From the NCBI GenBank assembly GCA_027382625.1, contig JAJKFJ010020659.1, positions 1 to 64,000 of the forward strand: a DNA stretch of 64,000 bases, in the 5' to 3' direction. The notes below the pieces were generated by a model that did not search any database, was not told the DNA's origin, and worked only from the letters and a program-made list of their open reading frames with translations. Origin of the DNA: Tetmemena sp. SeJ-2015 (lineage: Eukaryota; Ciliophora; Spirotrichea; Sporadotrichida; Oxytrichidae). Of the stretch, positions 9,695 through 37,867 are shown in pieces. Both the position numbers and the translations under genes were made by a program. Numbering within the stretch: the stretch's first letter is position 1; every line of letters starts with the position of its first letter.

Positions 9695-10755
9695 TCGATA
9701 TTTTCCTCTTGAATCATACGAGTCAAACGCGAAGTTACTCAAAAATAACTAGATGATCTATCCTATCTCAGTTTCATTTTGACTCTAAGGTATGGATGTA
9801 GCCACCCTTATCAGTAGTAATAGCCAGTTCTCAACATCAACTCCATCGCAAAAATGTTGAGAGTGCCACACTATACTCTCACATTTGAAAGTTGTTGATG
9901 AGAAAGTTAGGAGTTGCAGCTGTTCCTCATCGCACTTCTAAGTTTCAGCACATCAATTATTTGATTGATCCTCAAACTCTTCGCCACTAAGCGCACTTCA
10001 GTTTGGAGTAGAAGATCTTCCATAGATAGTTTCCTTATCTCAAGATCTCTCCATAGACGACTGTAGCAAACATCTATCGTTGAAATGGCATAATGTACAA
10101 AACTGTGAATCGAGTGAATCGCGTTATAGACTTCTCTAAGCCATTTTATTATAATAATCTGAAATATCATTACACTGCTCAGGTGTGAGAGGGATAGGGT
10201 GAAGTTTGTATGTGCTGACGAAGCTGTGTTCACACACAGCACCTTCATGAAGAAGAGTTGGTACAAGAAGCACGATAGCATAGAAGTTTACGAGTAGAAA
10301 GTAAATATAAGTGTTTTACTTGCAGGAACCAGCGCAGACTCAGGCTTAGAAACTTATGTCCTTCATCCTCGCTCTATCAAGTGAGAGCAGTGTGCTGCGT
10401 TCTTTAAGAAACTCATAGAGTATATCACAGACGGTGAGATTGTTCTACTTGTTGGCAAACTGAGCGTACAAAAGACAAAGGAAGCGAAGAAGGCATACGC
10501 TGAGTTGAACATCACTCCTGTTTTTAATGTTCCATACTCGCCAGAGTTCAACGGCATTGAATTTTACTGGAACTTAGTTAAGGGACACTATAAGAAGCTG
10601 CTGCTCTATCACTTGATGCATGATTAAGCTATCGATACAGATGATTTAATAGTGAGTAGTTGTAAGAGAGTGGAAGAAAAGAAAGCAAAGTTATGTGCGA
10701 GATAAGGTAGAGTGAATATTTAGGAAAATTATTTCTGCATAACTTAATGTTGACT
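9695..10755 (+). mobile_element. Tc1/mariner-type element MLE-2
   Basis: A repeat unit whose 5' half (about 9700-10036) recurs as the reverse complement at 19279-19615 and in part at 52425-52610, and in the same orientation but decayed at 51765-52330. It contains the transposase listed separately. Terminal repeats were not located with confidence. Confidence 0.7.
10093..10753 (+). pseudogene. DD34E-type transposase of MLE-2, second catalytic Asp lost
   Basis: ATG 10093 opens MYKTVNRVNRVIDFSKP (helix-turn-helix side). After one frame step near 10190-10220 (a 22-nt GT-AG intron or an indel) comes KFVCADEAVFTH (first catalytic Asp), then KSWYKKHD and a glycine-containing strand. LLVGKLSVQKTK follows, where the second Asp is Gly, then VPYSPEFNGIEFYWNLVKG with the Glu 35 residues later, which is DD34E spacing. 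The frame ends at TGA 10751-10753. In-frame TAG (EQKVN) and TGA (IKWEQ) occur in conserved positions. The Asp-to-Gly change predicts loss of activity, the opposite defect to MLE-1. Confidence 0.8.
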
Positions 10756-11935: not shown

Positions 11936-12775
11936 ATGGATCTTTGTTTTATAATAAACAAGAAGGCCGAAGAACATCAATACCTTAAAAACTTTGCATC
12001 TAATGTTCTTTTGAGTGCCCTTCTCCTAGGCAACAGCATAAATTGTGCTCTTCGTAATTTAGAATTTTTATTTAAGTTGTTAAACAACCAAGCTAAGAAG
12101 CAAGTGCAACTTTTACAAGCAAAAGCTAAAAAGTTGTTTTTATCATCAACAAAACAAGATGCTGTTGTACTAAGTGCAAGGGAGAGCTCTCTGAACTTGA
12201 GCTTAGAAAGAGATCTCTGTGCTTTAAATTGTCAAGGCAAGAGTTGAGAAGTCGGTGGGTGTTTAAACTATCGCACTTACTGCTTTTTCAACTAACTTTA
12301 AGGGAGTAGTGATGCAGTTATTATTCATGCACAGAGATCTCAAGCCAGAGAACATCATGATAAACTTTGAACCAGTCAGAGCAACTGTCATAGAACAGAG
12401 TTGTAAGAAGAGAAAACATTGAGGAAGCATCGGTGCAAGGAACACTACTTCCCATAGAGACAGACTTGGCTCAACGGTTCAGTGCAGTGGGACATTTGGT
12501 CTATAGTTGCAATCATACTTGAATGCGATATGAAACCAGAGAAATACTACTAGTGTGAAAGTGAAGATGATGCAATATAATTCAAGACATTGTAAGATAG
12601 ACAAGGTATCAGAACTTTTGAAAAAGTAAGAGAGTAATAATCAAGCAACCTATGAAACCTAACACTCAGTTATCTGAGATAGAGGAAGCAGGTATAAAAT
12701 TCAGAGAATATGAGACAGACGTCAAGGTCACCTTCCTAGAAGACTTTAGATTGCCTGTTTAGGGTTAAAATTTAG
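11936..12775 (+). CDS. Protein-kinase-like gene, K3 (retains HRDLKPEN)
   Basis: The strongest kinase motif in the window: MHRDLKPENIMINFE at about 12330-12380, preceded by IVKARVEKSVGV and a VVMQLLF helix. One frame over, SVQWDIWSIVAIILECDM matches kinase subdomain IX (D-x-W-S-x-G). A single-base break near 12390 separates the halves, at the place where DFG should lie, so the metal-binding motif cannot be confirmed. The upstream frame 11936-12247 (NNQAKKQVQLLQAKAKK) may be the N-terminal part or another exon. Unlike K1, K2 and K4, the catalytic loop is intact. Gene edges are uncertain. Confidence 0.65.
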
Positions 12776-12779
12776 CATG

Positions 12780-12850
12780 ATTATAAGTATTAATAAAGAA
12801 ATTAATTATACACAACTTATTTTCACTTTCTTATCATATTAATGGGGTTT
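12780..12850. repeat. Short repeat shared with 19605-19678
   Basis: A tgattata, tacacaacttattttcac, tttcttatcatatta block followed by ggggtttt matches 19605-19678 nearly base for base. At 19.6 kb it sits between the inverted MLE-2 fragment and the SF3 element. Possibly a transposon end. Confidence 0.6.
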
Positions 12851-12949
12851 TGGGATTTTGATTAAATTAAATATTAATAATATTTTCATATTAAAAGGAT
12901 TGTTGTGTATACATTATCATGGATTGGTATAAAATAGAATTGCATACTG

Positions 12950-19278: not shown

Positions 19279-19615
19279 ACTTGAGATAAGGAAACTATCT
19301 ATGAAGATCTTCTACTCCAAACTGAAGTGCGCTTAGTGGCGAAGAGTTTGAGGATCAGTCAAATAATTGATGTGCACGAAACTTAGAAGTGCGATGAGGA
19401 ACAGCTGCAACTCCTAACTTTCTCATCAGCAAAGCAACTTTCAAATGCGAGAGTATAGTGCGCTCTGGCACTCTCAACATTTTTGAGATGGAGATGATGT
19501 TGAGAACTGGCTATTACTACTGATAAGGGTGACTACATCCATACCTTAGAGTCAAAATGAAACTGAGATAGGATGGATCAATTTTAGTAATTTCGCGTTT
19601 GACTCGCATGATTAT
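19279..19615 (-). repeat. Inverted fragment of MLE-2 (5' half)
   Basis: Reverse complement of about 9700-10036 with few differences (for example actgaagtgcgcttagtggc and aactggctattactactga). It abuts the 12780-type repeat and then the SF3 element. Confidence 0.85.
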
Positions 19616-19682
19616 ACGTATGAATAAATAAATTAATCATACACAACTTATTTTCACTTTCTTATCATATTATGGGGATTTG

Positions 19683-19865
19683 ATTAGCCCAATCAAGGCG
19701 TAACCCAATATTTCGAAATTACGCCATAATTGAGCAAATTCGCAAATTTGCAAATCCAAAACAATGGAAAGGCAAGCTGGGAGAGATCACAAGTACGCTT
19801 TCTGTAATCAGACTAATGAAATCAGTATATATTTAATAGCTCCAATCAGGGTTTAGGGTGTGTGT
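19683..19865 (+). repeat. Left terminal inverted repeat of the SF3 element
   Basis: Starts attagcccaatcaaggcg and ends gggtttagggtgtgtgt. It contains short internal palindromes such as ttcgaaatt and gcaaatttgc, so single strands could fold. Confidence 0.9.
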
Positions 19866-20330
19866 AAATATTTGATGATGAATTATTAAGTATAAAAAGA
19901 ATAATCAAGTTCCAATCTAGAGATCAGGCTTAATTAAATAACTCGAGCATTATTAAATAGGACTTCCAGAGGAAGATTAGAGATTAGGAATTAGAGTTAT
20001 TTATATTATTATTGGTTTGAATATTTAATACCCCCCTGTCCCCTCATAAATATGGGGGCTCATACGTTCTCCCTCGAATGCATCACCGGTACTCTCTAGA
20101 CGTACTGACCACTGACCAGGGGGCCCACAGCCGATAGCCGCAAGAGGACGAGGGCGTTGCCACTCACTGCACAGGGCAATAGGAATCCCTGCCGTTCAAA
20201 CCCTCCCTGACTGAGGGCGTGAGCTGCTCACTCGGAGGCCTCGAGGGCCATGCCTGGGGCTCAGTGGGCTGGTCAAAGAGAGCGTGCACTCTGCCTCCGG
20301 TGTCTGATTCAGGGTGCCTCATAGCGGTAG

Positions 20331-20513
20331 TCATAGGGTGGTCACTGTGAGTGTCTAGTCATCCTCAATTTCGATCAAGTCCATCTTTTCTCTGATTGTT
20401 CTAGTAGCACTGTAGTCGCCGTAGTCGGTGCGTCGTCTGCTGCTGCCACTCTTTTTTATTTCCCTTTTTTCTTCTTTTTTTTCTTCCCGAGTCAGCTCCA
20501 TCAGCAACTCCAT
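20331..20513 (-). CDS. Small charged protein, divergent to the helicase gene
   Basis: ATG 20513 to TGA 20331-20333 gives 60 residues: MELLMELTREEKKEEKREI, a Gly-Ser-Arg-rich patch (SGSSRRRTDYGDYS), then REKMDLIEIEDD. It is highly charged and helix-prone. It faces away from the helicase ORF, which starts 95 nt to the right, so a shared bidirectional control region is likely. If TGA is read as Trp, the frame continues leftward through the GC-rich block for about 100 more codons. No homology recognised. Confidence 0.45.
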
Positions 20514-20607
20514 CTTTCTCTGGAAGTCCTATTTAATAATTTGAGAATATTTAAAACTATAAATATATTTTATAAATGAAACATAAGTCTCCTCAATTTC
20601 CAAATAA

Positions 20608-21924
20608 ATGATAGAATCACTTCCACAACCTCAGTATTACAGCAACAAGTCGTTTTTCGCCTTCACCATCGAGGCCTATGATATTTAGCTAAACAATTTA
20701 GAGATCAGCAAGCAAATCTGTTCTACAATTCATTGATCTTCAATTTTAAAGACTCGCCGCAGCTTTATATGGCAGTCACTGTTAAGTCCCTCTATGGTAA
20801 GCTCTTCAAGGAATATTTCACCTCTAATCCAAACGAGGGTAAAAAGTTCCTATCAACATTGGGGATTCAAATTTTGAGCATATCCAAGGGGAAAGTAAAG
20901 AAGGGTCTCAGAGAAGCCTGAGACGTCGCCATAATTTTGGGAAATAAGCGAATTGTCCTCGACAGGCTCGCGGAAAAGATCAAGAGAGTCTAATCGAAGA
21001 ACCAAGACAATGAGTAAGACTAAAAGAAAGATGACAAAGGAATCGTTTTTGACGCTATCAGGAAGATGCAATCAAGGGAGGTCAAATCATATAAGGAGCT
21101 GTACCAACAAAGTATACAATATTACCGCACTTTGTCGAAGCTTGTGAGAAACTGGCATGAGATTGAGGCCCACTTTGATATGCATGAGAAAGTCGGGGCT
21201 TTACCTAAATAGAATAGAGACGTGATTGAGCAGCTTCAGCTTTACATCAAGACTAAATATCCAAGAGATAGATCTCTGAGAGACAATTCAGTAGTTACGG
21301 CAGGTTATTTGGCAGATTTCAAACTTCTCGAAGTTGTAGATGGGCTCTATTAGGTTATTTTAAGTAAGTTGGATTAGAAGATTTGCACATGTATGGATAA
21401 TAAAACACGGGGAAGAGCACATTGATGAGACTGCTCTAGGAGATATTTTTAGCGGAGCCATTGACAGATGCAACTTGGAACTTCATCGTTGATAGAAAAG
21501 TAATTGGAAAGGAGCCCCAGCTCATAATAATGAATGAGATCAACACCCCTAATTTCCTCAGCAGAATGAACTTAGCCAGAATGAAGCTCCTTATGGAAGG
21601 CGAAGGATTTCCTGTCAACTTTAAATACGGTTGTGTAGAAATGAGGAATAAAGGGTGCAAGCTAGTAGCCTCATCCAATTCTAACCCTCTCAAAAAAATA
21701 ATAGACGAGGAGATAGAAGCCTTTGAGAACAGGACAGCATTGGTAAAGATGACAAAACAAGCAAGAAAGCCGTCAACATAGTTCTCCTTGTCAGCTCTAG
21801 ATTTTGAGAGGTATTTTTGTAAAACATCAAGGAGATGGTAACTAACCTCATCCAGTTAGAGACGAGAAGGAAGCAGGCTCAGATACCTATTTTGAGTGAG
21901 ATGAGCAAAGAATATGCACACTAG
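20608..21924 (+). CDS. Rep-like protein with SF3 helicase domain
   Basis: ATG 20608. N-terminal part has FFAFTIEAYD, resembling Rep motif I, but no H-x-H motif II is visible where expected (PQLYMAVTV). A helical linker (DAIRKMQSREVKSYKELY) follows. The helicase has Walker A GQQNTGKST (about 21391-21417), Walker B PQLIIMNEI (about 21510-21540), a Gly-rich B' region and motif C CKLVASSNSNP with the sensor Asn (about 21655-21690). These are standard SF3 marks (parvovirus, papillomavirus and CRESS Rep families). TAA codons encode the QQ of Walker A. Three frame breaks (about 20694, 21360, 21813) each fall in a T run and each would be fixed by one more T, so the gene is probably intact in reality. 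The C-terminus is uncertain: TAG TAA at 21922, no TGA before the TIR. Confidence 0.85.
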
Positions 21925-21978
21925 TAAATTTATATCGCACCATTGCCTTAAATGTTTTATAAATATTAAAAATAATTC

Positions 21979-22160
21979 ACACACACCCTAAACCCTGATT
22001 GGAGCTATTAAATATATACTGATTTCATTAGTCTGATTACAGAAAGCGTACTTGTGATCTCTCCCAGCTTGCCTTTCCATTGTTTTGGATTTGCAATTTG
22101 CGAATTTGCTCAATTATGGCGTAATTTCGAAATATTGGGTTACGCCTTGATTGGGCTAAT
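21979..22160 (-). repeat. Right terminal inverted repeat of the SF3 element
   Basis: Reverse complement of 19683-19865 with one base missing in an A/T run. Ends ccttgattgggctaat. Confidence 0.9.
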
Positions 22161-22315
22161 TTACTAAATTCGATCAGTGCAAAGTTGCTTTTAATTAATA
22201 GTGAGTAATTAAATTAATAAATTTTACCTATTTTTAAATTAATCTGGTTTTCAAATAAATCTGAACGAGAATAGAATTTCAAATAAAAACAGCCACGCAT
22301 TAGAGCTTCCACAGA

Positions 22316-22912
22316 TCAGCAACTAATCTCATTTATTTTATTTCTAACCATCAACTCTAATCTATTAAATTCCTATCTATAATATACTCCCTATATTTTA
22401 AGATGCTTATTCATACAAGGTTTCAAAAATAAGAATTCAGATCTAATGCCTTCGCATTCCAACAACAAGAGATCAACCTTAATTTTAATTTTTTCTCCTC
22501 CATAATTGTCAGAAATAATATTAGGAAACTTCTAAATTGAAAAAATAAAAGTTATCTAATTTTTTAAAATAATCTATTGAAATAAAATAATTGGTCTTAA
22601 TAATTAAATTTATTCATTCTTGATTTTCTCTTCCTTTAATTCTTATTGGAAATCATGGAAAGCCTATTCTTCGTTGTCCACTTATTCAGGTTGTATGTTT
22701 ATCTGCAATTGGTCTTAGACATGTTGCTATATCTCATTCTCCTATATTTGTATGTCGACAATATCTTGATTCTTTATTTCCTCATTCTGATTTAAGAGGG
22801 GTTATTCTTCATCAATTACGTTTGGATTTTCTTCTTGTATATAATTTGGTTACTCTTAATCATTCTCTTAGGGTAATTGTAGCTGTTCCATAACTTCCTA
22901 GACATTATCCAT
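22316..22912 (-). CDS. Gln/Glu-rich protein gene, unrecognised
   Basis: ATG 22912 to TGA 22316-22318, 198 residues with no internal TGA. The first half is strongly acidic and Gln-rich (EVMEQLQLPQENDQEQ, VIDEEQPLLNQNEEIKNQD), with roughly half the Gln codons written TAA or TAG. The second half (NYGGEKIKIKVDLLLLECEG, YYRQEFNRLELMVRNKI) looks like a folded domain. An AT-rich middle part may hide an unrecognised intron. It lies 156 nt right of the SF3 element. One of the clearest genes that the standard code hides. No family recognised. Confidence 0.65.
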
Positions 22913-23173
22913 TATATTAAATTTTAGCCAAGTTTTTCAAGACAGTGAATAATATTCTAATTTATAAGATTATTTAAATCGACCCAAAAACATTCAGATG
23001 AGACAGTTTTAATTTAAATTAATTAAATTGTAAAAATATCTTAATATTATCATTCTTCTTATTATAGCTTGAATACGAATAGTGAATTGTGAGCTATAGA
23101 AAGCTTAATTTAGCGTCAGGGGATTTACGAAGTGCTTAGTTTTGCTTTATTATTAACTTTAAATTATTTTAAA

Positions 23174-23901
23174 TGAAAGAAGAAGATGAATTACTTATGG
23201 AAGAATACAAAACATTCAGTTCCTTTCTTACTCGCTCTAAATTCAGAGGTAACTACAAGCACTAAAGTGACTTCTTTAGAAAATGAAGATTCTAAATGTG
23301 AGGATCGAGATAATCTCCAACCACTCGCCCCTATTGATGAGTGGTTCACTGATGAAGGGGAATTAGAAAATTTGAGCTAAGAAGCCCAGTCCAAATGGTG
23401 CATCGCATTCAAGATAGTTAAGGCCAAGCTTACATTGATATTGATGATATTTGCAGCTAAACTTTATATGGAAGAGCTTGCCTATGACCTTAACTGCTTA
23501 ATCCTTCTCATGGCGACAGCATAAAGCTAGAGGGGAAAAGGCTACGCTAAAGCTTTCTTGGCTGATCTTGAACTCTATCTAAACAATAAGAAGCGGTTAA
23601 TTATAGGAGTGTAGCAATAGATTGCGGGCTTAGCACTTCTTTCTTCATTGGGTTTAACCTCCTCGCTCTTACCTAAATACAGCTGCCTTGACTGGCATGG
23701 GAAAAGGATCCTTTGCAAAAACGATACGGTAGATAAAAGGGAGAATTACTTTGTAGATTATTGGCAATTGCTACCGCCTAAAATTACACCAAATAGTTAT
23801 CAAACTAGAAAAGACCTAGACAATTAATAGCCCTTCAAATGCTATATAAGAGTTCATGGCTTTTATCAGCAAAGGATAAATATCAAAGAAGGCAGTTGAG
23901 T
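23174..23901 (+). CDS. GNAT-family acetyltransferase-like protein
   Basis: ATG 23174 (MKEEDELLMEEYKTF). A 19-nt GT-AG intron (23249-23267) then joins to VTSLENEDSKCEDRDN. The core reads ELAYDLNCLILLMATAQSQ, then QRGKGYAKAFLADLELYL, the acetyl-CoA-binding motif A (Q/R-x-x-G-x-G/A), then a strand (RLIIGV) and LALLSSLGL, matching the GNAT motif B helix and L-x-x-x-G-F. First possible stop is TGA at 23899-23901. Family role is acetyl transfer from acetyl-CoA to an amine; substrate unknown. The next coding pieces (to 24.8 kb) could belong to the same gene. Confidence 0.6.
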
Positions 23902-23904
23902 TGT

Positions 23905-24472
23905 GAGGAGGAGAGAAAAATGCTCAGCGCGTCAAGGGATCTGACACTTACGAATTGGAAGAGTTAGTGGAAGATTTGGGAGTCAGTGAGCAAGGCAAGA
24001 ATAACAAGTAGTTCTATGAGATAAAGAAACATGAACTGCGACTCAAGAGTCAAGCAAGATATTCAGGAAAACATCGGGAAAGCTAGAAAAGCAAAAGAGA
24101 CATTACAAAATCAATGAGAGCCTGGACAAGTAAAGGGAACTAAGTGGAGGCGTATTTAGCAACTGTGGTTTCTTCTACAAGCTTTGCTGTTTTGAGAGCT
24201 GCAAGCAGCTGAAGGCAATTAGGTAATCACTGTGTACAGGCATATTAAGGCTCCAGTAGCAAATGGGCCTCAAGAAACGATATTTCTATTGAAAGATGTA
24301 ATGGAGCAGATCGTATGTACTTTAAAGAGTGTAGAGCTAGGAGCAAAAAAAAATCGATTATTTAACATTTTTGAAACAAATGCCCGATAAGTAAAGATGA
24401 TGCGATTTGGGGTGATAGTAATACTTTGCCTCCTTCATTCAAGTACTGCATTTGAACTTGAGAGCTAGTGTA
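23905..24472 (+). CDS. Coding segment, unrecognised, possibly same gene as the GNAT domain
   Basis: A frame reads QRVKGSDTYELEELVEDLG, NKQFYEIKKHELRLKSQAR, KSKRDITKSMRAW, then ERCNGADRMYFKECRARSK and SKDDAIWGDSNTLPPS, ending TGA 24470. The first part is clearly protein-like (charged helices); the Cys residues later may bind metal. Another frame around 24150-24230 is also Cys-rich (NCGFFYKLCCFESCKQLK), so frames or exons are not fully sorted out. Confidence 0.4.
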
Positions 24473-24524
24473 TTCTTGCTTTCTTTTAGACAATAATCTT
24501 AAAATTTATTAAGGGATATTGAAG

Positions 24525-24816
24525 AAGGTGAGCAGATATGTGAAACACAAGTTGATCAAGTGCGAGGTCTGCCTAAAACTTAAAATATCTGAGAGTTTTA
24601 GAGCGAAAAAGAAAATATCAATATGCAAAGCATGCTAAAATCTGGAAAGCGAAAAAATTAAAGCCGAAGGCGAAGAGACCCAGACTCTCAAAATGAGGGA
24701 GGTAGTAAAGAGCATCTGTAAAATGACGAATAAGAATAAGTCGTAAAAATTTGAGACTCAAATGCTTTGGTCTCTCAATCAGTCTCAATATGTAAAACTA
24801 GTAAAACTGATTAAAT
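24525..24816 (+). CDS. Four-cysteine zinc-binding exon
   Basis: Frame reads ILKKVSRYVKHKLIKCEVC, a linker of about 17 residues, then ICKACQNLESEKIKAEGEE and MREVVKSICKMTNKNKSQK. The C-x2-C...C-x2-C arrangement suggests a zinc ribbon or rubredoxin-like knuckle. Lys-rich tail. Probably the 3' end of the gene upstream; the frame does not meet a TGA until far into AT-rich DNA. Confidence 0.45.
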
Positions 24817-25036
24817 AGGTATATTAAAACTGTGGTTCTTATTATCTAATATTAATTCATAATCTATGCTAAGAACTTCACAATTTTAGCTTCTATGGAG
24901 CTCAAGATTCACTATTCTCATTTAACCTATATTATTATTTTAAAGCCATTGCAAGCATTCCTATATATAGGACGAATACGATTTAAGTTATCATAAAATT
25001 GAGATTTAAAAATACAAAAATTCTTATTCATTTTAT

Positions 25037-25943: not shown

Positions 25944-26323
25944 TTATAGCCAAAAATTAAAAAAAGAGAATAAAATTAAAATGGATTATATCAGTGAAAA
26001 GAAGTATGTTAAATTTAAATAATTATTATCAATTCGATTCAGCAAAAAATTTGATGAACTTTTACCCTTCCAACTTTTGTGTGGGAGAGGTTAATCCAGT
26101 TATAAGTTCACAAGTTTCGATGAAGAAGATGAGTGCGTTAATCATTTCTCATTACTAAGAGGTACTGTGAAGATGATTAAAGAAGAAATTTATATTATTT
26201 TTTGATAAACTATTGAACAAACTGCAGGGTGAGTGAATCAGCGATTTAAACTGACACGAAGTTGCAACTCTCCATTTATATTTTTATCAATCACCGATTT
26301 TAATTAAAATTCCAACTATAATT
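25944..26323 (+). mobile_element. MITE family M1, full-length copy
   Basis: Starts ttatagccaaaaattaaa, ends aattaaaattccaactataat. Interior contains ccaacttttgtgtgggag and gaagatgattaaagaagaa, diagnostic of the family. Confidence 0.8.
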
Positions 26324-27366
26324 AGATCAAGTTAGTAATAAGATTTGAAATAAAAAAAGAAACAGTTTTTTAAGTAAAAATAAAATTATTTTACTAGAAG
26401 GTTAAAATTTAGGTCCCATGAGATCGCAGCAAAGTCTGCTTCTCTGGAGTAGGGAGTTTATGTGGGTATTACTCAATGTTTCTATCATGCTATGTATTAT
26501 TAAGTCTTAAATAATAATTTTTCTGTTATATTCATTTATATAGACATATATTATTTTAAAAGAGAAGGAATTATATCGATAAAACTTAAATTTGAATTTT
26601 ATGTAGAAATAGCCATAATATAATATGATTTTTTCATTTTAAACGAACAAAAATCATTATAAATAAATCCAAACGCAGGGCAGTTTCATCTATCATATCC
26701 ACATCTATTTGATTGCGTTAATTACTTATACTATTTTGTTAATCATCAAAAGCAATAGCTTGGGAAGGTTCGATATCCAACTATTAAACACTTATCATAG
26801 GTGGGTCATATGATTATATAATTTGTAATTTAATATAATCTTTAATTATTTATTTATGAAAGTAGAGGATTCCTTATTCCAGTCATTCTTTGGGAGTATG
26901 AACTTAAAAATTATATTCAAATTGTAAGTTAGAATCAATAATTTATTCTTACAGTATTTAAAATAACACATTTAAATTTTAATAAAAAATCATAAATGTA
27001 ATATATGTAATGAATCTGATTATTTTATATTATTTTAGTTCAACAAGGAAATAGATTATCATTCAGTCCTTGCTAGTAAAATAAAATACTTAAAAATTAA
27101 AACAGCAAAGTATCCCTACTAATATACAGAGTCTCATTTTAGAATTCAAATTACTAGACTTGCAAAATTATACAAATATTTAGGTACTTATAATAGATTG
27201 TGAAAAATAATGCCTCTCAACAAAATATAAATACTATAACACTCAATGACGTAACAATTTTTTAAAAAAGATTTATTGCCATATTTCCTAAAAACTTGTG
27301 GAGGAACAAGCATTAATGTTTATTGTATTAATTTCCGCAATTAATCAAAACAATGAAGATTTTAGA
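26324..27366. other. AT-rich stretch, nothing supportable
   Basis: A plus frame at about 26670-26790 (IYLIALITYTILLIIK) could be a membrane segment, but composition alone does not separate it from chance. No repeat or RNA gene recognised. Confidence 0.4.
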
Positions 27367-28357
27367 TATTATTGATTTAGAATTGATTTTTATTAAAAAT
27401 TAGATATGATTTTATGATTTTTTGGAATGCGTTATATGCCCTCGCGTAAATTAAATAAATTAAATAAAGAGAAGGGAGTATTAAAGAGTAACAGAATGGA
27501 GTTTAAATTTAATGATCTCCTCTCAAATTTCACTTTCAGAAATTAGAAATGTTTTCTGAAAGAATCTTTCAACTTTCACTTTCAATGTATAGAATTTGTT
27601 TTTGAAAGAAATTTAAAGGTTCATCTCCATCTACTGTGTTTCCATAATTGTATTCTTGAGTTCCAAAATTCTTTCTATCTCCACATATTTCTTGTCTTCT
27701 GCAGTCTGTTCCTGTCTTCTGCGTGTTAGATGTCTGTGCCCGGAGTGGTTCCCATTGTCAGGCCGGAAAGCCCTGGGTTCTAACTCCACTGTGTACCTCA
27801 CTCACTCACTCTCACAGTACCACTCTATCTCTCCTCCTCTCACTGCCCCTTGCTTAACACTGTATCATTCTCAGCCCTCAGACGAACCTTACATAAGACA
27901 CCGGCTCACACAGACTCACTAACTCCGGTCCACAGTGGAGTTAGAACCCAGGGCTTTCCGGCCTGACAATGGGAACCACTCCGGGCACAGACATCTAACA
28001 CGCAGAAGACAGGAACAGACTGCAGAAGACAAGAAATATGTGGAGATAGAAAGAATTTTGGAACTCAAGAATACAATTATGGAAACACAGTAGATGGAGA
28101 TGAACCTTTAAATTTCTTTCAAAAACAAATTCTATACATTGAAAGTGAAAGTTGAAAGATTCTTTCAGAAAACATTTCTAATTTCTGAAAGTGAAATTTG
28201 AGAGGAGATCATTAAATTTAAACTCCATTCTGTTACTCTTTAATACTCCCTTCTCTTTATTTAATTTATTTAATTTACGCGAGGGCATATAACGCATTCC
28301 AAAAAATCATAAAATCATATCTAATTTTTAATAAAAATCAATTCTAAATCAATAATA
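27367..28357. repeat. Palindrome P1: 427-bp arms, 137-bp loop
   Basis: Left arm 27367-27793 and right arm 27931-28357 are reverse complements without an indel that I could find. Arms carry AT-rich outer parts and a GC-rich inner part (cccggagtggttcccattgt, ggccggaaagccctgggttc). The loop is C/T-rich (cactcactcactctcacagt). No long ORF with recognisable content. A foldback-type element is the likely nature. Confidence 0.9.
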
Positions 28358-28487
28358 ATCATTCTTAAAAACAAAAACCATGCATGCTTGAAAGATTTAT
28401 ATATCTCATTTAGCTTTATAAATTACATATATACTACTAAACACTTAATATATTGCTATCTGTAAATTGTTTTATTCTGAATTCTAA

Positions 28488-29109
28488 TATATGCGAGAAT
28501 TTAATTGGTTAGTTAAATGAAATACAACTGCTCCTTGCTCGCTGATGCGAACTACCTTAATTTAAACTTAATTATTATCGTTAATATTAAAGAAATGTCT
28601 GCCGATGACGCTGGCCTTCCCCGATCTTCAAAAAAAAACGCACTTTGCTCAAGCTAGCACGGGAGGTCGACCCAGCCGGTTTGGCCACGGTGGCTCTAGC
28701 CTACGCAGCGGCACTCACCCGCTCCCCACTACCAGCCTCCAGGTCGTCGGCGAGGGAGCTGCCGCTCCATGGATCCTCGGCCATCTTTAGCTCTCACCTC
28801 GGCAAGTCCGAGAGACCTCACCCAAGGTCAGTGAGAGAGCCGAGACGCCGACGACCTGGAGGCTGGTAGTGGGGAGCGGGTGAGTGCCGCTGCGTAGGCT
28901 AGAGCCACCGTGGCCAAACCGGCTGGGTCGACCTCCCGTGCTAGCTTGAGCAAAGTGCGTTTTTTTTGAAGATCGGGGAAGGCCAGCGTCATCGGCAGAC
29001 ATTTCTTTAATATTAACGATAATAATTAAGTTTAAATTAAGGTAGTTCGCATCAGCGAGCAAGGAGCAGTTGTATTTCATTTAACTAACCAATTAAATTC
29101 TCGCATATA
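28488..29109. repeat. Palindrome P2: about 265-bp arms, 93-bp loop
   Basis: Arms 28488-28752 and 28846-29109, identical apart from one base in an A run. Inner arms are GC-rich. The loop contains tttagctctcac and gagagacctcaccc, which recur in the loop of palindrome P3, and the arms share cttcaaaaaa...aacgc and gcacggga with P3. Two members of one foldback family are inferred. Confidence 0.9.
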
Positions 29110-29590
29110 ATAAGAATGTCTTTTCAAACTTTTAAATTTTGAATTTATCAAATTAGTGATAATTTTATTCTATTTTACCTATTAAACTAGAATTTTATTT
29201 TTTATGGAATACAACCATCATCTTTTATTAATATTTTAGGAGCTGGCTCCCTAGTTTAAAATATATAATCATAATGTATTAAATAATCCCTTTTGTAATA
29301 CAAGCCATTTTTAATATATCTTGATTAGGACTTTCTTGCCCTATTTTCATATAATATTCATTCAATTCTTGTTTTGATTACATCCTGGATCGAAAGCTCT
29401 CACAAAAATGGCATGAATAAAAGTTCTAATAATTGAATAGCTATATTATAAACATATTTTGGTGAAATGAACAATTAATTAACACTTATTCTTAAGGACA
29501 GAGATCAAAGATTAAATATTCAAAGCTTCGAATGAATTGCCCTTAATAAGAAAGCAGTAACAACAAGAATAATAATATAATTATCTAAAC
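29110..29590. other. AT-rich stretch, nothing supportable
   Basis: No motif, repeat or RNA gene recognised. Confidence 0.5.
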
Positions 29591-29862: not shown

Positions 29863-30939
29863 ATGGTCACGAGAGGACTTCAAGATCGCATTCTCAGGAG
29901 TTCAACCTCACTCAACACAGCAAGCAGTGATCCACATTCAGAGATCATAATCACAGAGCTTCCAGTGCTACGATTCTGACTTTAAGCAAACAGCAGCTTG
30001 AACTCATCCTCATTACAACCTGAGATGATCCTGGCTCTTCTCATGAAGATTGAGTCGTCAATTAAGTGGTCTACAGATCCTTGCGGATCTTAATAGCCTA
30101 GCCTATCTGCTTCTTCGATATAGTAGGGCTTTGGCCACGAGATCCACTCGCAAGATTATCAAGTACTCTATTCCCACTGCTTCAGGGCTGTGTCAAGGCT
30201 CGATAATGAAAGCTAGCCTCTGGAGCCTGAGCACATGTTTGGAGATGGGATTCCAGCCTTACCCTTCATATGAAGGAACTTTGCTTAGACTCGGAGCAAT
30301 CGCTCACTTAGATTTCCTGGGCTCCTTACTACCTCAGGGCCCTCCCAAGCGACAGAGATTATAGTAGACTAAGTGCAGGATACTTTCCATGGTATCCACT
30401 CTCCGCATGAAAGTTTAGCTAGAAATCCCGATGAGCTCTCTTTCTTGGAGGAGAACTCTTGCCCAATTCGATTAGCCGCGTAAAACACAAAGGTTGCTGG
30501 AATCAGTATTCGAGGTAGATCGCTGCTGACATTTTAATCCTATCATGTCGCCAGGGAAACCTGACAGATTCGCCTGTAGCGTATGCACTCCAAAGCCTTC
30601 TAGAGTGTAGCTGCCTTTTCATAGATTGAAATGACTGAGAGAAGAAGCCACCCATACTGTATGATTGCACGCTCTAGGGGCAAGTTCGCTTGGAGTTGAG
30701 TGGAAGCACTAGATTGGAGACTCCTGTTATCAGAATCTCCGATAGGAGTTATTCGATGGGTTCAGAGTCGTGGCTCACCCATTCCAGGCTCCAGTGTGCA
30801 AACAAGCACCTTTCCTTCCTGCAGGAATCTTTAAAGAGTGTGCAAGCGCCTCGCCGATCTCAGGCTCAACTGCAGAGGCCAAAGATAACCGTTTGCCAAT
30901 CATTCCATGCGTCTGCCCTATTTTCCGTTCCACTTGTGA
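29863..30939 (+). CDS. Coding-like region, unrecognised
   Basis: From ATG 29863 one frame stays protein-like for most of its length: MVTRGLQDRILRSSTSLN, MILALLMKIESSIKW, FRAVSRLDNESQPLEPEHM, then GIHSPHESLARNPDELSFLE and PIRLAAQNTKVAGISIRG, ending TGA 30937-30939. Three internal TGA would be Trp. Around 30730-31100 a different frame looks better (STCEELPMHLFALVEIDHES, ELIQELITAFAIQEHREQ, ending TGA about 31102), so a frame step or exon junction is likely. Codon use is GC-richer than flanking DNA. No family recognised. The 3' part overlaps the end of the MLE-4 transposase on the other strand. Confidence 0.35.
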
Positions 30940-31046
30940 AGAGCTACCCATGCACTTATTTGCCTTGGTCGAGATTGACCACGAATCCTCTTCAATAACT
31001 CAGCTATATTCCCGAAGCTTGCCTTCTGAGTTGATCTAGGAACTCA

Positions 31047-32060
31047 TCACAGCCTTTGCAATTCAAGAGCATCGAGAGCAAATTTTACGCAGCTCAAGAA
31101 GCTAGCTTTGATCCAGCGCCATGGGAGCGCATTAACGTGCAGCTGGAACCAGGATACAAACTCATCTCTCTTCTGGCAAGGAAGCCTTATCCTGGCGTCC
31201 CTCTTGATCGCAGCGAAGATTCTCTCCACTGGAGCCAGTTGGAACTAGTACGGCCCTAGGTAAATGACTGAGGCCTGGAGCAAGCGCAAGGTTCGCAGAG
31301 TCTCCTGGCTACGATGGTAGGAGGCGTTATCTAGCAAGATGCTGGTGGAGCCCCTCCAGTCCAGTGTCTCTCCATCAAGGTATTCGGTCAGCTCGAGGAT
31401 GAAGCTCTTGATAGGGGGGTTTTTTCGCCCAGAGTGGATAGCGTAGGCCAAGCGCCCGTCGCTGAAGGAAGCCGCCACAATGCTGAGTCCATAGATGCGT
31501 TGCAAGCTGTCACTATAGCAGCGGGTGCCAGCAAGGCTCCACCCCTTGCGCTAATAGGATTGCGACTGCAGCGAGCTCTCATCTATGTTGATGAGGAGGC
31601 GCTTCTCACCTAGGGCACGGATGTAGTACGATGCTGCCAGCTGCCGCTGCAGCAGGCACGGCGTGGTGTTAGTTCTGATGTCGAGGGTGTGAACCTTCTT
31701 GTAGGAGAGCCCGAGCTTGCGCTTCAGGAGAATGCGGAGCGAGCCTGCAGTAGGTCTCTACCCCAGCACTGCCTGCATCTCATCTTACAACGCTCCAGCA
31801 GAAGTGATTGGATCCCTCTAGGCTTGGCGCCTCGCGATTGCTTTCATCAACAGCGCCTCTCGACCTCGCATCTCGGTGGACCTGTAGACTCCACCCCTCC
31901 GACCATCAAGAGACCTCTTGTGGAGAATACTATCAAGAGCAGCGCGCTTGATAGAGAAACGCCTCATAAGTGAACTCTTCGAGCAACCCTCCTGTCTGTG
32001 GAGATACAGAATTCGCTCTCTAAGCTGTGCCCTCGAGCGAGAGATTTATGATTATGTCTC
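31047..32060 (-). CDS. Tc1/mariner DD34E transposase, apparently intact (MLE-4)
   Basis: One uninterrupted minus frame with no internal TGA, ending TGA 31047-31049, about 335 residues. The N-terminal helix-turn-helix is AQLRERILYLHRQEG then SLMRRFSIKRAALDSIL. A second DNA-binding-like part includes GSLRILLKRKLGLSYKKV. The catalytic domain has LLINIDESS (first Asp), RKGWSLAGTR, STSILLDNASYH (second Asp) and FQLAPVERIFAAIK (Glu), with 34 residues between second Asp and Glu. TAG is read as Gln at several places. No in-frame ATG marks the N-terminus, so the start near 32060 is approximate. The family cuts and pastes at TA; TIRs were not located. Confidence 0.9.
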
Positions 32061-32539
32061 CTAAGCACGTCGTACCTATGAAGCATGAATTAGGTCTCTA
32101 CGAGAGGTGTTTCAAACTTACTCATCAAGATACCTATGGCTGCGCAGTTTGGACGAAGAATGGGAGCGCCTCTTTCTACTCCTCCCTGCTCTTTGCGGAC
32201 CTCATAGTGGTTGGATCCTCCAAATTGACCAGATCTGGTCAAAGGGACAGCGCGAGAGAACGCAACTCCGATAACTAGGCCTAGGTGAAGTGCCCGACCT
32301 CTGAATTACTCGACGACATGCTCTCGAGTTGGCGCCGAGGGTCTAGGATCTAACTTGGGAACACTTTGCCTGACAGCCGTGTCTCTGCGCGCTCAGTCTA
32401 TGAGCGGAGGGTAGACTACATCAGAGAATGCAAGTGCCTCGGCGGACCCATTGATGAACCGACAATGATGAGGCCTGAGGTGAGACAAATTTCGCCATCG
32501 CTTTCCTCGCTTCCACTCGCTTCATTCACGTCGTCGTGA
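32048..32539 (+). CDS. Unrecognised ORF overlapping the 5' end of MLE-4
   Basis: ATG 32048 to the first TGA 32537-32539, 163 residues. Reads LYERCFKLTHQDTYGCAVW, ADLIVVGSSKLTRSGQRD, SELLDDMLSSWRRG, then VYERRVDYIRECKCLGG. GC-rich codon use like the neighbouring F2. If TGA is Trp the same frame continues without a stop into F2 at 32825, so these could be one gene with an intron (gtactt...tgcag, about 41 nt at 32711-32751). Alternatively part of the transposon 5' region. Confidence 0.4.
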
Positions 32540-32824
32540 TCTGAGAGCGGTGCCAGAATCTCAGAGGCGCTGTCCCGAGCACCGCCAATGTAGCCCTCCA
32601 GGGTTGTTTAAATGTATCTCCTTCGCTGCGACTCTGACCTAGATTGGCAAGGAGTTATTTCTCAGTCTCGAGGAATGAAAAGTCAAGGAGCGAATCAGTC
32701 CTGCTCCAAGGTACTTACATATTGTCGAGACTTATAAATTTACGCTTGCAGGTATTAAATATTATTATAGATTAAATTACTTGAGCTCATCATAAGTGCC
32801 ACTCTACGAACTCATCAAGGAATA

Positions 32825-33651
32825 ATGGATAGACAGCTCACTGAGGTTCACGTCAACGAGGTCAGGCAAAAGATCGGGAGCAAGAAGGAGCTCTACGACT
32901 TCCTCTCCCAAGAGTGCGGGGCCTACCTGCCCAAGCTGAACTGCTCCAACATCTACTTCTTCAGGGCCATTCTCACTGGCGAGAAAGAGGTAAGCTCAGT
33001 CGATTAACGCGTATAGCACCTGAAGCGCAGCGATGTTATCGTCGCAGCAGTGCCACAGATCGAGGGCCTCACAGCCGAGGACTTTCTCGACTTTGCACAA
33101 GGCAGGCGCGGCTCCTCAGGTACTTGCCTGACTAGTGCGACTGGCTTCACCTGGACAAAAAGTGGATCACTGACATCTTGCTCTCCCTGGATACGGAAAG
33201 TGTAAACCAAATGATTTTCAGCGCCAAGCAGACGCGTCGGGAGAAGCTAGATCGGACTCAGAACTCCTTGGTGATGATGAAGCCCGAGTTCGCCAGTGCG
33301 CTCTCGAACTCGCTCTCATTTAGCGGTAAGTATCGTGGCACCCTTAAGCCTTCATAGTCCAGAAAGGGCGATCCGCCTTCCTGATCAAGCAGAGCGCCAA
33401 GAGAAAGGAGAGAGCTCCTCAAGTGGTGGAGGAGGTGAAGGAGTCCCCAATCGCATCAAAGAGGAAGACCAAAAAACATGCATGAGAACAAGCGCGTCAG
33501 GGAGGAGATCGGCCAGCTGAAGGACCAGGTCGATGACCTCCTGGGCTACAAGCAATTGGTCCTCCACCTACACAAAGGAGGCGTGATCGACCACCAGGGG
33601 ATGCCCCAGGCGCTGGCTCCAGGCCAATAGCAGAATGATTTTATGGAGTGA
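32825..33651 (+). CDS. Family F gene, F2
   Basis: ATG 32825 (MDRQLTEVHVNEVRQKIG) to TGA 33649-33651. Family blocks are SKKELYDFL, GAYLPKLNCSNIYFFRAIL, a 27-nt GT-AG intron after GEKE, HLKRSDVIVAAVPQIEGL, RLLRYLPD, HLDKKWITDILLSLDTE and QTRREKLDRTQNS. A 32-nt intron (33326-33357) follows SLSF, at the position of the introns in F1 and F3. The C-terminal exon is Lys-rich and ends with a coiled-coil-like helix (REEIGQLKDQVDDLLGYK). Frame breaks occur near 33100 and in the six-A run near 33475; one A fewer there restores the frame. Homologous to F1 and F3; function unknown. Confidence 0.7.
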
Positions 33652-33889
33652 CGTTATTAATTTATAAGCCTTTAATTAAACAGACTAGCCGCTAGATTAT
33701 AAATTTTATTTGGGATGCTCCAATCTCTCAAAAATGGAGCCGAAGAAATAGAATTCCATCTGTCGCAACTCAAGGGATTCCTCACACCAGCGGGGCGACG
33801 CCATACATCCCGCCGAAGCAGGTAGGTTAGAACCAACCCTCTAGTCATGGTCTGCGGCTCGGGGGGGGATCATCGACTCTGATTACCGC

Positions 33890-34893
33890 CGAACGGGCTA
33901 AGTCCCAAAAGCCCTAAACCCTCTCTTTCCAAAACCCCGGAGGGGACCAGCGGGGAGTTTGATGCCACTGGGCCAAGGAGTCGTCTGATATGCCCCGCAC
34001 CACATCCATGCGCTTAGCTTCCCACATGGACGGGTTTACTCGTCGATGGCGAGGATGTCGATGACTGGAGTCGGGCGGGGGAAGAAATAGAATCGCCATG
34101 ACAAGGTGAGGCTTGGATCGACCCTGCTTGATTAGGAGTGATTTTGCGAGGAGCGAGAGATGGCCTTGATCTGGCTCTCAACTGCCAGAGTCATAGGCAA
34201 CGTGAGGATGCTGGGCAAGGTGATAGCCTGTCTGGGCATTTGGCGACCAGGCAGCTCCCTCCCTCTAGGGGACGGCTCTGGCTGTGCACAAGGAAGATGC
34301 GCAGCTACCCTCCCCTCCACATCCAGTCTGGAGGCCTCTTAATACTTTCGCGAACTGCCTGGACCATTTAGTAAGGATGGCGCCAAGGAGCAGCGAGAGA
34401 GCCCTGGGAGGCCTTGGGCATCAGCAGCAGCTTAACTAACGCTGATGGCTCGAAGAAGGGTGGCCGCTTCGGCGTGAGCCACGTACACATGCCCCCGTTA
34501 TTCCCGAAAGCCCTCTGGAAAGCTTAATTGAACTCATCGCGCACCAGGAGCAGAGACGGGCTGAGTCGAGTGGGAGAGGCCTAGGAGATCCTCACCATCT
34601 CATTTGCGGCGTGTAGCCCGCTTGAAGGAGAGGAGATTCGACAGCCGCAAGCTTGGGATCCCCCAGCATAGGTCTCTTAGTTGAGCTGGTAGAGTTGCGT
34701 CAACTCATGGCGGCTAGAGCAAAGCCTTCGATTGATTGGGATGAGTCGAGGAACAGCTGGCCTCGCTGCTTACCATCTCACCGACTGGGATGGCCAGAGC
34801 ATTGAGATCATCTGAAGGATATTCCTCCTCCAGCTCTATGGCTGGGACAGGGGCTCCAGCAAGGCTGCGCTGGGCATCTGTTCGAGGGCTCAT
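33890..34893 (-). CDS. Unrecognised gene with a 17-nt intron
   Basis: ATG 34893 reads MSPRTDAQRSLAGAPVPAI then EEEYPSDDLNALAIPVGEM. A 17-nt GT-AG intron (34757-34773) leads into LFLDSSQSIEGFALAAMS and, further on, PMLGDPKLAAVESPLLQAG. Later pieces in other frames are RDEFNQAFQRAFGNNGGM, PKRPPFFEPSALVKLLLMP, MVQAVRESIKRPPDWMW and, near the 3' end, SMWEAKRMDVVRGISDDSL. The pieces are clearly protein-like but frame steps remain unresolved (indels or more introns). No family assigned; the LFLDSS...EGFALAA strand is only vaguely RNase-H-like. Confidence 0.45.
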
Positions 34894-35038
34894 CTCGTGG
34901 GCAAGGATCTCTCAAAGCCGTGATTGGCAGGCTCGCCCCTACCCGGGTCACTGGAGCTAGTCCGGGGAGATGAGGGAGAAAAGCTAGCCGGAATAACCAA
35001 CCGCCGTTAGAAGGAGGGCCTAGGAGAAGTGCCGCGCC

Positions 35039-35383
35039 ATGGTGTTACCCAATCACGCGCTTGGCGAGCCGGAGGTGCTCGAAGATGGAGGAATGTCTGC
35101 CGGGGAGTCACGTCATACAGCCCTGAGGAGGATAGCGGCTCGGAGTCGTGAGGAGGGAGACATTCCAGAAGTCTGGCGGGACCCAAAAAGGGCCCATGTA
35201 AAAGAAGTGGGACCCGGGAGACTTGTGAGGGGGGTTTTCGCGCATCCCGTCTCGGGGGCGATAACCCGGGAGGAGCGAGCCCTTGTCCTTTGCGAGTGGG
35301 GGAGTGTGCGGCAGCTCTTGAGAAAGCGGGGGCTCTCAGGGAAATGTGGGGAAAGAGAGGGAGTTAAAGGAAAGCCCTTTTAA
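35039..35383 (+). CDS. GC-rich ORF of doubtful reality
   Basis: ATG 35039 to TAA 35381. Reads GEPEVLEDGGMSAGESRH, REEGDIPEVWRDPKRAHV and EERALVLCEWGSVRQLLRK. Acidic-basic mix and GC3 are plausible for coding, but from about 35180 the sequence becomes homopolymer-stretched, so the frame cannot be trusted, and TAA would be Gln in this code. Confidence 0.25.
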   Translation: MVLPNHALGEPEVLEDGGMSAGESRHTALRRIAARSREEGDIPEVWRDPKRAHVKEVGPGRLVRGVFAHPVSGAITREERALVLCEWGSVRQLLRKRGLSGKCGEREGVKGKPF

Positions 35384-35389
35384 GAAGCA

Positions 35390-36250
35390 GAACCCTCTGC
35401 CAAAAGGAAAAACCCCGCAAGAGATCGTTTCCATCACCTTTCCCCCGGTTTAAGCTGTAGAGAAAAGTCCCTAAAGTTCCCCCGCCCCCTCGTTCCTCGT
35501 TTGATTTAAAGACCTTAAATAATAAAAACTAAAATATAAGGAAAAAGGGCAGCTCCAAAGGGCGGCCGTTCCATTTTTTCGCGAAAAATCATGAGCCGAG
35601 CGAATGCATCACCACAGACGCGGGGCATGCACGATCCCCTTTCCCAACGCAGTCACTCGTGAAACAGAAAGAGGAAATGAGCGGCGCCAATGTTGAGGAG
35701 GGGAGGATTCAGTTTCGGGGTCTTCCTAAATTGAGAGAAACCTGAAATCGGGGGTTAACACGGGGTGAAAAGTCGGCATCTAATCATCATTGGCCCTTTG
35801 GGAAAGGGTCAAAAGACCTTTTGACCCTTTTTCGCTTTGCAATTAAGTTGAAACATTTTTCCCCCTATACACCCTTCCCCCTTTGGGTAACTGGGGTTTT
35901 GGGGTTTTGGGGTTTATTAATAAACTTAATCTAAACTATTTTATTTAAACTTGATTTGGGTTCATTTTATTGTTCTGAGGGTTAAAATACAAAAATTCTT
36001 TTGTTCAATAATTCGGATTTAGTTTTTCTCCCATTTATTTTTTAAATTTTTTGTCTTGTTAAGCACAACATCTTAAAGGGTATTGCTTTCGTATCTTTAA
36101 GGAATGAAATCATCGATCTGACAATTAATAACTCTAAGATAAAAAATATTATTCATTGAAATTAAATGTATTAAATAAGTTATAATCTTGGCTGAAGTAA
36201 TTGATGAAAACATGTGTGCTTTTTTTAAGATAAAGATATTATCATTGCCT
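35390..36250. other. Homopolymer-distorted stretch, nothing supportable
   Basis: Runs such as ccccc, ggttttggggttttgggg and tttttcg resemble those of 1-3100. No gene, repeat or telomere array is claimed. Confidence 0.5.
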
Positions 36251-36912: not shown

Positions 36913-36929
36913 TATCAGTTTAATTTATA

Positions 36930-37336
36930 ATATAGTTGGAAATTTAATTAAAATCGGTGATTGATTAAATAATAAATGGAGAGTTGCAACTTCTTGGCAG
37001 TTGAAATTGCAGATTCACCCCCCCGATCTGAGGTTTTCGATGCCTTTTCAAAAAATTTAAAATGAGTTTCTTCTTTAATCATCTTCCCCAAACCCCTCTC
37101 AAGGAGATATGATTACCCATTTTTCTCAATCTTTTTCGTTTTTAAAACTTTTGTGCTTATTAAATCTTTTTGAGCCCTTCCCCAAAAAGTTTCAAGGATA
37201 AAAAGTTTTTAAAATTTATGTTTAATCAAAAGGTTAATATTATTTTAAAATTTTTCACACTTTAAATGCCCCGAAATTTCCCATTTTTATTTAATTTTTA
37301 AATTTTAAATTTATTTTTATTAAATTCTCAGCTTAA
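36930..37336 (-). mobile_element. MITE family M1, copy with distorted homopolymers
   Basis: Starts atatagttggaaatttaatt and ends taaattctcagct. The first third is close to consensus; from about 37010 many positions are replaced by runs (cccccc, ttttt), like the 1-3 kb region. Confidence 0.8.
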
Positions 37337-37867
37337 AAAATTTTTTTAATAAAAACTTTTTTTTCTTCAAAATTTTATTAGAATAGTTAATTCATTGCTT
37401 ACTTAATTAATAATTAACTATTTTTTTGTTTACAAATTTATTGAGGTTTAATTCTGTTTTAATCCTCCTCCATGTCTTGATAATAAAAAGCATTAATATT
37501 GCATTTTATTTTTAGTTTAGAATTAAATAAAAATTGATAATGAGCTAAAATAATAAATATGGTAAATAAGGTTGATGCTAAATAAATAAGTTTATAAATT
37601 TCCCATCTATAGATTGTTAGATAACCAATAAAAATTAAAATATATTATTTACTATATATAGATAATCTTTGTTGCTTATTAGCCATTAAAACTCACTTTT
37701 ATATAAAATTTTGTAGTTTTCTTCTTAAAGCTTAACCTCTTAAGCTAAAGATGAAAATATAGATAATATTAAATCTTTATTCTAATAATTACTTTGTTTA
37801 AATCTTGAGTCATGTATAAAAGATAGAGGAGAACATATTTAAATCTTAATAAACACGCCTCAAAGAT

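Follow-up and report, generated by a model that had tools for sequence, protein, structure and literature searches.

A 64,000-nucleotide stretch of the genome of the ciliate Tetmemena sp. SeJ-2015 (positions 1 to 64,000 of contig JAJKFJ010020659.1, hereafter the window; contig C1739 among the 5213 contigs and 146 Mb searched) contains a damaged member of a family of mobile elements in which long terminal inverted repeats (TIRs) enclose one conserved open reading frame (ORF) for a superfamily 3 (SF3) helicase. Many of the TIRs carry short tandem repeats (iterons), the elements insert at TA, and their tips are interchangeable. On balance we read the family as replicons built around an initiator like papillomavirus E1 or polyomavirus T antigen, with a transposase supplied in trans that would insert them at TA.

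Searching the genome for other copies, as the original prediction (made from the letters of the window alone) had advised, placed the helicase fragment at no fewer than 150 sites (150 scored of 269 candidates), a figure that is not a copy number, as some sites are fragments of one copy; the single-copy cellular gene that the prediction had named as the outcome fatal to it is not what the genome holds. The window's left arm, used as a query, recovered 16 places on 10 contigs, the window included, and two close relatives of the window copy (L018 and L019) are about 2.27 kb long with TIRs of 414-417 bp. Across the family, intact members span 2.0-2.3 kb with TIRs of about 200-420 bp, and the roughly 1.4 kb between the TIRs is filled by one conserved SF3 ORF of ~450 aa. 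Thirty loci were cut out, and in 24 of them an inverted-repeat pair flanks the helicase. The exceptions are the window copy, L022 and L032 (both at contig ends), L034 (split by an insert), L020 and L036. TIR arms are at least 97% identical in 19 of 26 elements (median 99.1%), in a table that excludes several elements with partial pairs and those with type-C tips (tip types are given below). A frame of at least 380 aa with SF3 motifs was read in 24 of 53 loci, a count in which two places appear twice and two loci (L020, L040) lie partly outside the gene. Members that are 23-29% identical to L050 keep the same layout; L058, 21% identical to L050, has no TIR within the flanks examined. SF3-protein genes are also found in a common repeat of at least 4.3 kb (L069, L070 and L071, on C4278, C2530 and C311; 92-96% identical), perhaps a larger element, with no TIRs in the flanks examined.

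The conserved protein and the repeats within the termini

Alignment of 17 ORFs (L043 without its C-terminus), and of 14 in another alignment, leaves invariant the GK of Walker A, an EGxG...K stretch, the SN of motif C and an Arg after motif C, with the Walker B acid being either E or D; Walker A, Walker B, B', motif C and the arginine finger that define the SF3 superfamily are all present. Among 14 members compared with profiles, DUF5906 matched in every one at E ≤ 0.1, PF00910 in nine and Parvo_NS1 in eight (best E 2.2e-4), the best RNA_helicase match being at 0.001, and phage-primase families are the commonest matches in both NCBIfam (10/14) and PHROG (8/14). The SF3 profile search that had been proposed for the helicase also put one member, L073, above the curated Pfam cut-offs of PPV_E1_C (32.1 against 26.5 bits) and Parvo_NS1 (20.7 against 20). 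In the N-terminal ~200 aa of the 17 ORFs neither a His-x-His pair nor a tyrosine is conserved, nor is any catalytic His/Asp/Glu/Tyr set; conserved positions there are mainly aromatic/Phe and glycines, and the order of strands and helices, judged by eye, is likely similar to that of HUH-type origin-binding domains. Judging from its sequence, the protein is most likely a replication initiator of the papillomavirus-E1/T-antigen kind.

Substitution patterns indicate that the family ORF is under purifying selection. The ratio of non-synonymous to synonymous divergence (dN/dS; Nei-Gojobori, genetic code 6) is below 1 in all nine of the least-diverged ORF pairs (0.11-0.69), these being the pairs with dS <1.5, beyond which more distant pairs are saturated. 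It is lowest in the two pairs richest in substitutions, L043/L074 (0.11, dS 1.41) and L021/L022 (0.12, dS 1.18), and in the latter the constraint extends over the N-terminal part (0.14) as well as the helicase (0.08). Four further pairs give 0.19 (L058/L071), 0.24 (L052/L053), 0.33 (L058/L070) and 0.41 (L070/L071); the remaining three are considered below.

Many of the TIRs contain tandem arrays with a preferred period. We scanned periods of 4-15 bp in 39 left arms as delimited, including close relatives and three short derivatives, against 200 dinucleotide shuffles; period 8 is the best in 34 of the 39, and in 23 of those 34 at most two of the 200 shuffles reach its score. Counted from the tip, the arrays begin at ~184-267 bp in long arms and at 82-109 bp in short arms, and the unit varies by subfamily (ATTGGTAC-type, TGGAATAT, GACTAATG, TTGGAACA, CCTGACCA and TCCACCAA; AAATGTGC in L018/L019). 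Over 31 of the 39 elements, distance between iteron units correlates with protein distance (r 0.64, with 0 of 2000 permutations as high), the corresponding value for tip type, in classes set by hand, being r 0.22 (11 of 2000 permutations). The elements left out of these correlations were the short derivatives L084-L086, four in which no period-8 array stands out (L057, L079, L093, L094) and L026, the last despite its period-8 array.

The original prediction had suggested a possible Rep transposon or an endogenous element resembling an ssDNA virus. One form of that reading is an integrated parvovirus- or CRESS-like replicon with rolling-circle or rolling-hairpin copying. The matches to Parvo_NS1 and RNA_helicase are in keeping with this, as are the iterons and a profile comparison with seven plasmid Reps of PF01719/PF00910 layout (hhalign probability 96.2), in which, however, the helicase alone aligns and the N-terminal domain does not. 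Folded as DNA, 17 TIR arms (16 from SF3 elements and one from the GNAT-like family described below) contain no strong hairpin, with fold z-scores of +0.8 to -2.3; 12 of these 17 arms have more repeated 10-mers than any of 40 shuffles. Since there is neither a conserved HUH motif or catalytic Tyr nor a strong TIR hairpin, rolling-circle or rolling-hairpin replication is not indicated, and a second conserved gene is also missing, so we regard a Rep replicon as very improbable.

Insertion at TA and exchange of tips

Empty sites, another search recommended for the window element, were sought by joining element flanks with one TA and comparing the junction with the genome. Two of the three elements tested gave a match across the junction: L021 at 99% on contig C280 (21.8 kb) and L048 at 93% on C502. 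Because C280 is long, its empty site is taken as a second germline haplotype; a developmental excision product would look the same. A third line of evidence comes from L013, nested in an L030-type TIR, where comparison with uninterrupted copies reveals a duplicated TA, the target duplication expected of Tc1/mariner elements. With multiple copies, defined ends and empty sites, the elements constitute a mobile TIR family that has, on these comparisons, moved, with at least one insertion (L021) probably recent; the earlier expectation of recent activity is right to that extent. The window copy itself is neither self-contained nor intact.

Four types of tip were recognised: A (TATTCTAACAATC and variants), B (TATAGATAGG), C (TATAGGATG) and D (TATTGTAG). 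Pattern searches of the genome returned 82 and 292 matches for forms of A, which may overlap, 132 for B and 102 for C, each with 0 control matches, and among the matches listed paired tips lie mostly 0.6-1.3 kb or 1.9-2.3 kb apart. Elements that are otherwise nearly the same can carry different tips: L056 (type A) and L075 (type B) are 96.9% identical over 1927 bp and unalignable in the outer ~66 bp at both ends, and L053, with A tips on both sides, is 90% alike inside to L052, which has a B tip on the left and a degraded right end. Conversely, L018 and L072 have 35 bp of tip in common (94-97%), and at that E-value nothing else in them matches.

Type-B tips also bound a second kind of element. 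L018, L072 and L075 are B-tip SF3 elements, and three others of 1.9-2.0 kb (L077, L078 and L080) encode a GNAT-like protein instead (PF00583 at E 0.0025, below the cut-off; C-terminus Cys/His-rich by eye), which has at least 111 genome matches (100 scored of 395 candidates) and, between L077 and L080, a dN of 0.208 and a dS of 0.743; no transposase match was obtained in these elements. The alignments thus indicate that the outer ~66 bp form a swappable module common to the SF3 and GNAT-like families. One explanation for such sharing is a multipartite virus or mobile genome, whose SF3 and GNAT-like segments, and perhaps others, move as a set. Its case would be strengthened by a GNAT-like single-gene copy beside the helicase element in the window (~23063-24931, with imperfect terminal repeats), whose left tip, by eye, is C-like (TATAGCTTGAATACGAATAG), given that type-C SF3 elements exist. 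Nevertheless, the few tip-bounded elements opened include no capsid, polymerase or transposase segment, and shared tips can mean merely a common transposase; we consider a multipartite genome improbable.

No DDE/D transposase of their own was found in the family's elements, in which the SF3 ORF occupies the space between the TIRs. DDE_3 transposases are abundant in the genome (at least 150 matches, 150 scored of 921 candidates), and one DDE_3 ORF lies in the window at 31050-32111 on the minus strand, within a block (30001-36000) of 47-57% GC amid AT-rich DNA. Larger copies examined as possible autonomous partners proved to be something else. On C2818, a copy of 4.5 kb turned out to be an SF3 element interrupted by a nested insert of ~2.2 kb (in L034/L061), itself another TIR element with tips TAGTATAGGATCA and a 3-bp TAA duplication; L083 (C3095, 3.6 kb), an SF3 element too, has its helicase gene interrupted by a DDE_3 ORF and is the sole copy in which such an ORF was seen; and L081 (2.76 kb), whose repeats and ORFs are like those of L082, has SF3 remnants inside. 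The larger tip pairs opened exclude those on C3386, C2445 and C2512 and include C2250 in part only (L039).

These observations bear on two further explanations. The protein might itself transpose, its N-terminal domain being an unrecognised nuclease or recombinase and the SF3 domain its motor: no other conserved gene is present in the intact elements read, and the paired-tip elements opened yielded no larger, transposase-bearing partner. We think this improbable as well, as the N-terminal domain lacks a conserved catalytic set and a TA duplication of 2 bp is what DDE transposases typically leave. Alternatively, a viral SF3 gene may have been captured by Tc1/mariner-type elements that are otherwise ordinary and non-autonomous and are moved only by a transposase acting in trans, with the helicase in a side role (regulation, or repair after excision) and no replication function. 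The TA duplication, the many DDE_3 genes and the unrelated GNAT-like gene behind the same type-B tips all suit captured cargo, as do shorter elements (0.8-1.3 kb) bounded by the family's tips: of seven opened (L084-L090), two contain SF3 remnants (L084, L089), and the other five (L085-L088 and L090, with A or B tips) have none at E 1e-6. Yet nothing obliges captured cargo to remain under purifying selection across so much divergence, or to have tandem iterons that are specific to the subfamily and occupy a comparable position in the TIR. Moreover, five A-tip elements of about 2.2 kb (L062, L091-L094), opened because no helicase list contained them or as a check, all carry the SF3 gene or its remains, some of them decayed. 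Captured cargo seems to us unlikely, though a more serious contender than the multipartite, self-transposing or Rep explanations.

A single conserved gene combined with subfamily-specific tandem sites in the TIRs fits the needs of an initiator replicon, and TA insertion with exchangeable tips points to an enzyme supplied in trans. In the E1/T-antigen-like reading that we favour, a nuclease-less N-terminal domain, predicted to bind DNA sequence-specifically, is followed by an SF3 domain with presumed helicase activity; the initiator would melt the DNA after binding the tandem 8-bp iterons of each TIR; host polymerases would then be recruited, so that the element is amplified either excised or while still integrated; and a TA-specific DDE transposase of Tc1/mariner type, acting in trans, would recognise the outermost ~66 bp and insert the element at TA. 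Copying from arm to arm during replication of the element could account for the identity of the arms and for the simultaneous change of both tips; gene conversion is an alternative explanation.

Several results weigh against this reading or qualify it. The joined flanks of L075 matched only its own flanks, so that no empty site was found for it, and none of the DDE_3 genes of the genome or window could be linked to the family's tips. Type-C elements have less complete TIR pairs. Inverted 8-mers exceed all 40 shuffles in four of the 17 folded arms (L021, L027, L040, L053). In 11 of the 39 arms, between 3 and 86 of 200 shuffles score as high at period 8 as the real sequence does, and these 11 include the window's own subfamily (13 shuffles for L018, 4 for L019); in five of the 39 the best period is another one. 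The correlation between iterons and protein may reflect common descent, both being parts of the same DNA molecule and the permutations ignoring relatedness. PPV_E1_C matched in just three of 14 members, and DUF5906, an SF3 family of the phage-primase type, is commoner. The sole fold model, a single-sequence AlphaFold prediction of the window's helicase piece, is unusable (pLDDT 37.6). Finally, dN/dS is higher in some close pairs (0.51 for L018/L020, 0.56 for L047/L048 and 0.69 for L046/L074) and reaches 1.25, on few changes, in the helicase half of L047/L048; the raised values of pairs with L020 and L046 arise because both run partly out of frame.

The copy in the window and its surroundings

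The window copy is a dead, cut-down member of the family, and the self-contained element originally drawn between 19683 and 22160 has to be revised at its ends and in its interior. The near-identical TIRs on which that description relied were recovered by an inverted-repeat search of the window as two pairs of arms, 19683-19748/22095-22160 (66 nt, 100%) and 19745-19869/21975-22099 (125 nt, 98%), which form one stretch of about 187 bp with a 1-base gap only. Alignment to L018 and L019 carries the right arm on to the family tip at 22381, which is the true right end: the right TIR is complete (21970..22381, minus strand, about 412 bp, 92% to the L019 TIR) and closes in a type-B tip, TATAGATAGGAATTTAATAGATTAG, with 0 mismatches (22357..22381, minus strand). 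On the left only the inner ~187 bp remain (19683..19870, plus strand); the TIRs of L018 and L019 reach about 221 bp further outward, and aligning the window to these relatives' elements found no second location in it for the missing part. Repeats of 8 bp, not compared with shuffles, stand in the left TIR at 19728..19757 on the plus strand (AATTGAGC AAATTCGC AAATTTGC AAATCC), at the place where L018 and L019 have their period-8 array, and a repeat scan found the mirror copy in the right TIR (22084..22115, minus strand).

Between the TIRs, the remains of the helicase gene (20577..21950, plus strand; about 90% DNA identity to L018/L019) run through three successive frames, with translation giving an in-frame TGA stop in the N-terminal part (20919..20921). 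In keeping with the ciliate code that had been predicted, the gene is readable only with TAA and TAG as Gln. Under genetic code 6 the SF3 core (21389..21895) contains all three motifs first reported, on the plus strand: Walker A GQQNTGKST (21395-21421), Walker B PQLIIMNEI (21515-21541) and motif C CKLVASSNSNP (21656-21688). This piece matches Pfam DUF5906 at E 1.7e-6, above the family cut-off, and PHROG DNA primases at E 3.2e-6; the SF3 domain is therefore genuinely present. The element is further interrupted by a nested insert of 592 bp (19949..20540) bounded by 29-bp TIRs of its own (97%) and GC-rich in its core, foreign to the helicase family: it has no match in element loci L001-L046, its own place excepted, and a 78% match to window 2675-2862. 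The divergent small ORF once assigned to the element may be a 60-aa minus-strand ORF at 20331-20513, which exists and lies within this insert.

Where the outer ~220 bp of the left TIR should be, the end of a TBE-like transposon (19280..19682, plus strand) adjoins the element, with its tip ending at 19682. This flank is repetitive too, matching five other places in the window (945-1018, 9712-10044, 12775-12868, 51741-52029 and 52423-52606). A related copy, at 12775ff, keeps its outward tip, which reads CAAAATCCCAAAACCCC when reverse-complemented, close to the CA4C4A4C4 of Oxytricha TBE transposons; passages of PMC4724952 on these elements give C4A4 telomeric tips and an ANT target duplication. 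ATT at 19683-19685 would be the target duplication of such an insertion, so that, with the similarity of the tip, the TBE-like end apparently sits in the left TIR of the window element. Tips of this C4A4 type, the use of TAA and TAG for Gln and the abundance of repeats suggest the germline genome of a spirotrich, one of hypotrich-like kind.

Other repeats in the window include an inverted repeat of 1266 nt at 43585-44850/45159-46424, 100% complementary with arms 308 nt apart, which is either a long palindromic element or an assembly artefact, and adjoining large inverted repeats at 27367-28357 and 28485-29112 (446 nt, 98%; 153 and 122 nt, 99-100%). Dispersed repeats resembling miniature inverted-repeat transposable elements, with TATAG-type tips such as TATAGTTGGAATTTTAATTAAAATC (by eye), lie at 26032-26327, 36925-38308 and 39850ff, with further copies at 48071-48372, 51311-51750 and 55259-55689.

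Relatives outside this genome and comparison with known systems

Sequence searches found no close homologue outside this genome. Among 5.8 billion proteins none matched the window fragment, one full-length protein or A2 at E ≤ 1, in a search that needs shared 5-residue words and whose protein predictions may not use this genetic code. IMG/VR yielded no relative and phage records no match; GTDB genomes gave one weak match, with L051, and plasmid records two, at E 0.1 and 0.6. Matches in the PDB were of P-loop type or weak (phage primase 6k9c, 0.056 and 0.037; parvovirus NS1 9kbj, 0.17), and neither an Rfam family nor a tRNA was detected. We know of no transposon superfamily that consists of just an SF3 initiator and iteron-bearing TIRs, lacking transposase, integrase, polymerase and nuclease. 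No title in the literature searched describes such elements, most subscription papers lying outside that literature, and a term search of the main texts of PMC9797194 and PMC4724952 gave 0 occurrences of 'helicase'.

If the family is amplified by initiator-driven replication, it would link papilloma- and polyoma-type initiators, otherwise viral, to a chromosomal mobile element, and one element would have its replication and its integration run by proteins from different elements. Because the subfamilies of this one genome differ in their iterons, they would offer a natural series in which to test the specificity of initiator-iteron recognition; the swapped tips, for their part, raise the question of what keeps two distant TIR arms identical. 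The bolder proposal is that these elements represent a previously unrecognised class of mobile DNA in eukaryotes: E1/T-antigen-like initiator replicons of a germline genome that lack a nuclease and have two separable modules, iterons read by their own initiator and interchangeable tips read by the TA transposase of another element, with the tips common to at least one other single-gene family in the manner of a segmented genome. We put it forward only tentatively, as possible rather than probable.

Polintons, polinton-like viruses and transpovirons likewise combine TIRs with an SF3-type helicase, and are far larger, with polymerase, integrase or capsid genes; at ~2.2 kb the present family has no room for these (overlapping frames lay outside the Pfam scan). 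Ciliate Tc1/mariner-type elements (TBE, Tec) resemble it in their TIRs and germline habitat, TBE-like tips even adjoining the window copy, and Tec elements share its insertion at TA; unlike them, the family has no DDE gene of its own. Its tips A-D and TA duplication also differ from the telomeric C4A4 tips and ANT duplication given for TBE elements in passages of PMC4724952. With parvovirus NS1 and CRESS-type Rep, including the Reps of phytoplasma and staphylococcal plasmids, it has in common an SF3 domain of the same broad group, and it departs from them in having no conserved HUH motif or catalytic Tyr and no strong terminal hairpins. E1-type initiators act through a non-nuclease origin-binding domain on repeated sites. 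Papillomavirus E1 and polyomavirus large T differ from the family, whose members are TIR elements integrated at TA with 8-bp iterons and no capsid genes, and are alike to it in their SF3 helicase, in the N-terminal domain without nuclease residues that precedes it, and in the repeated short DNA sites.

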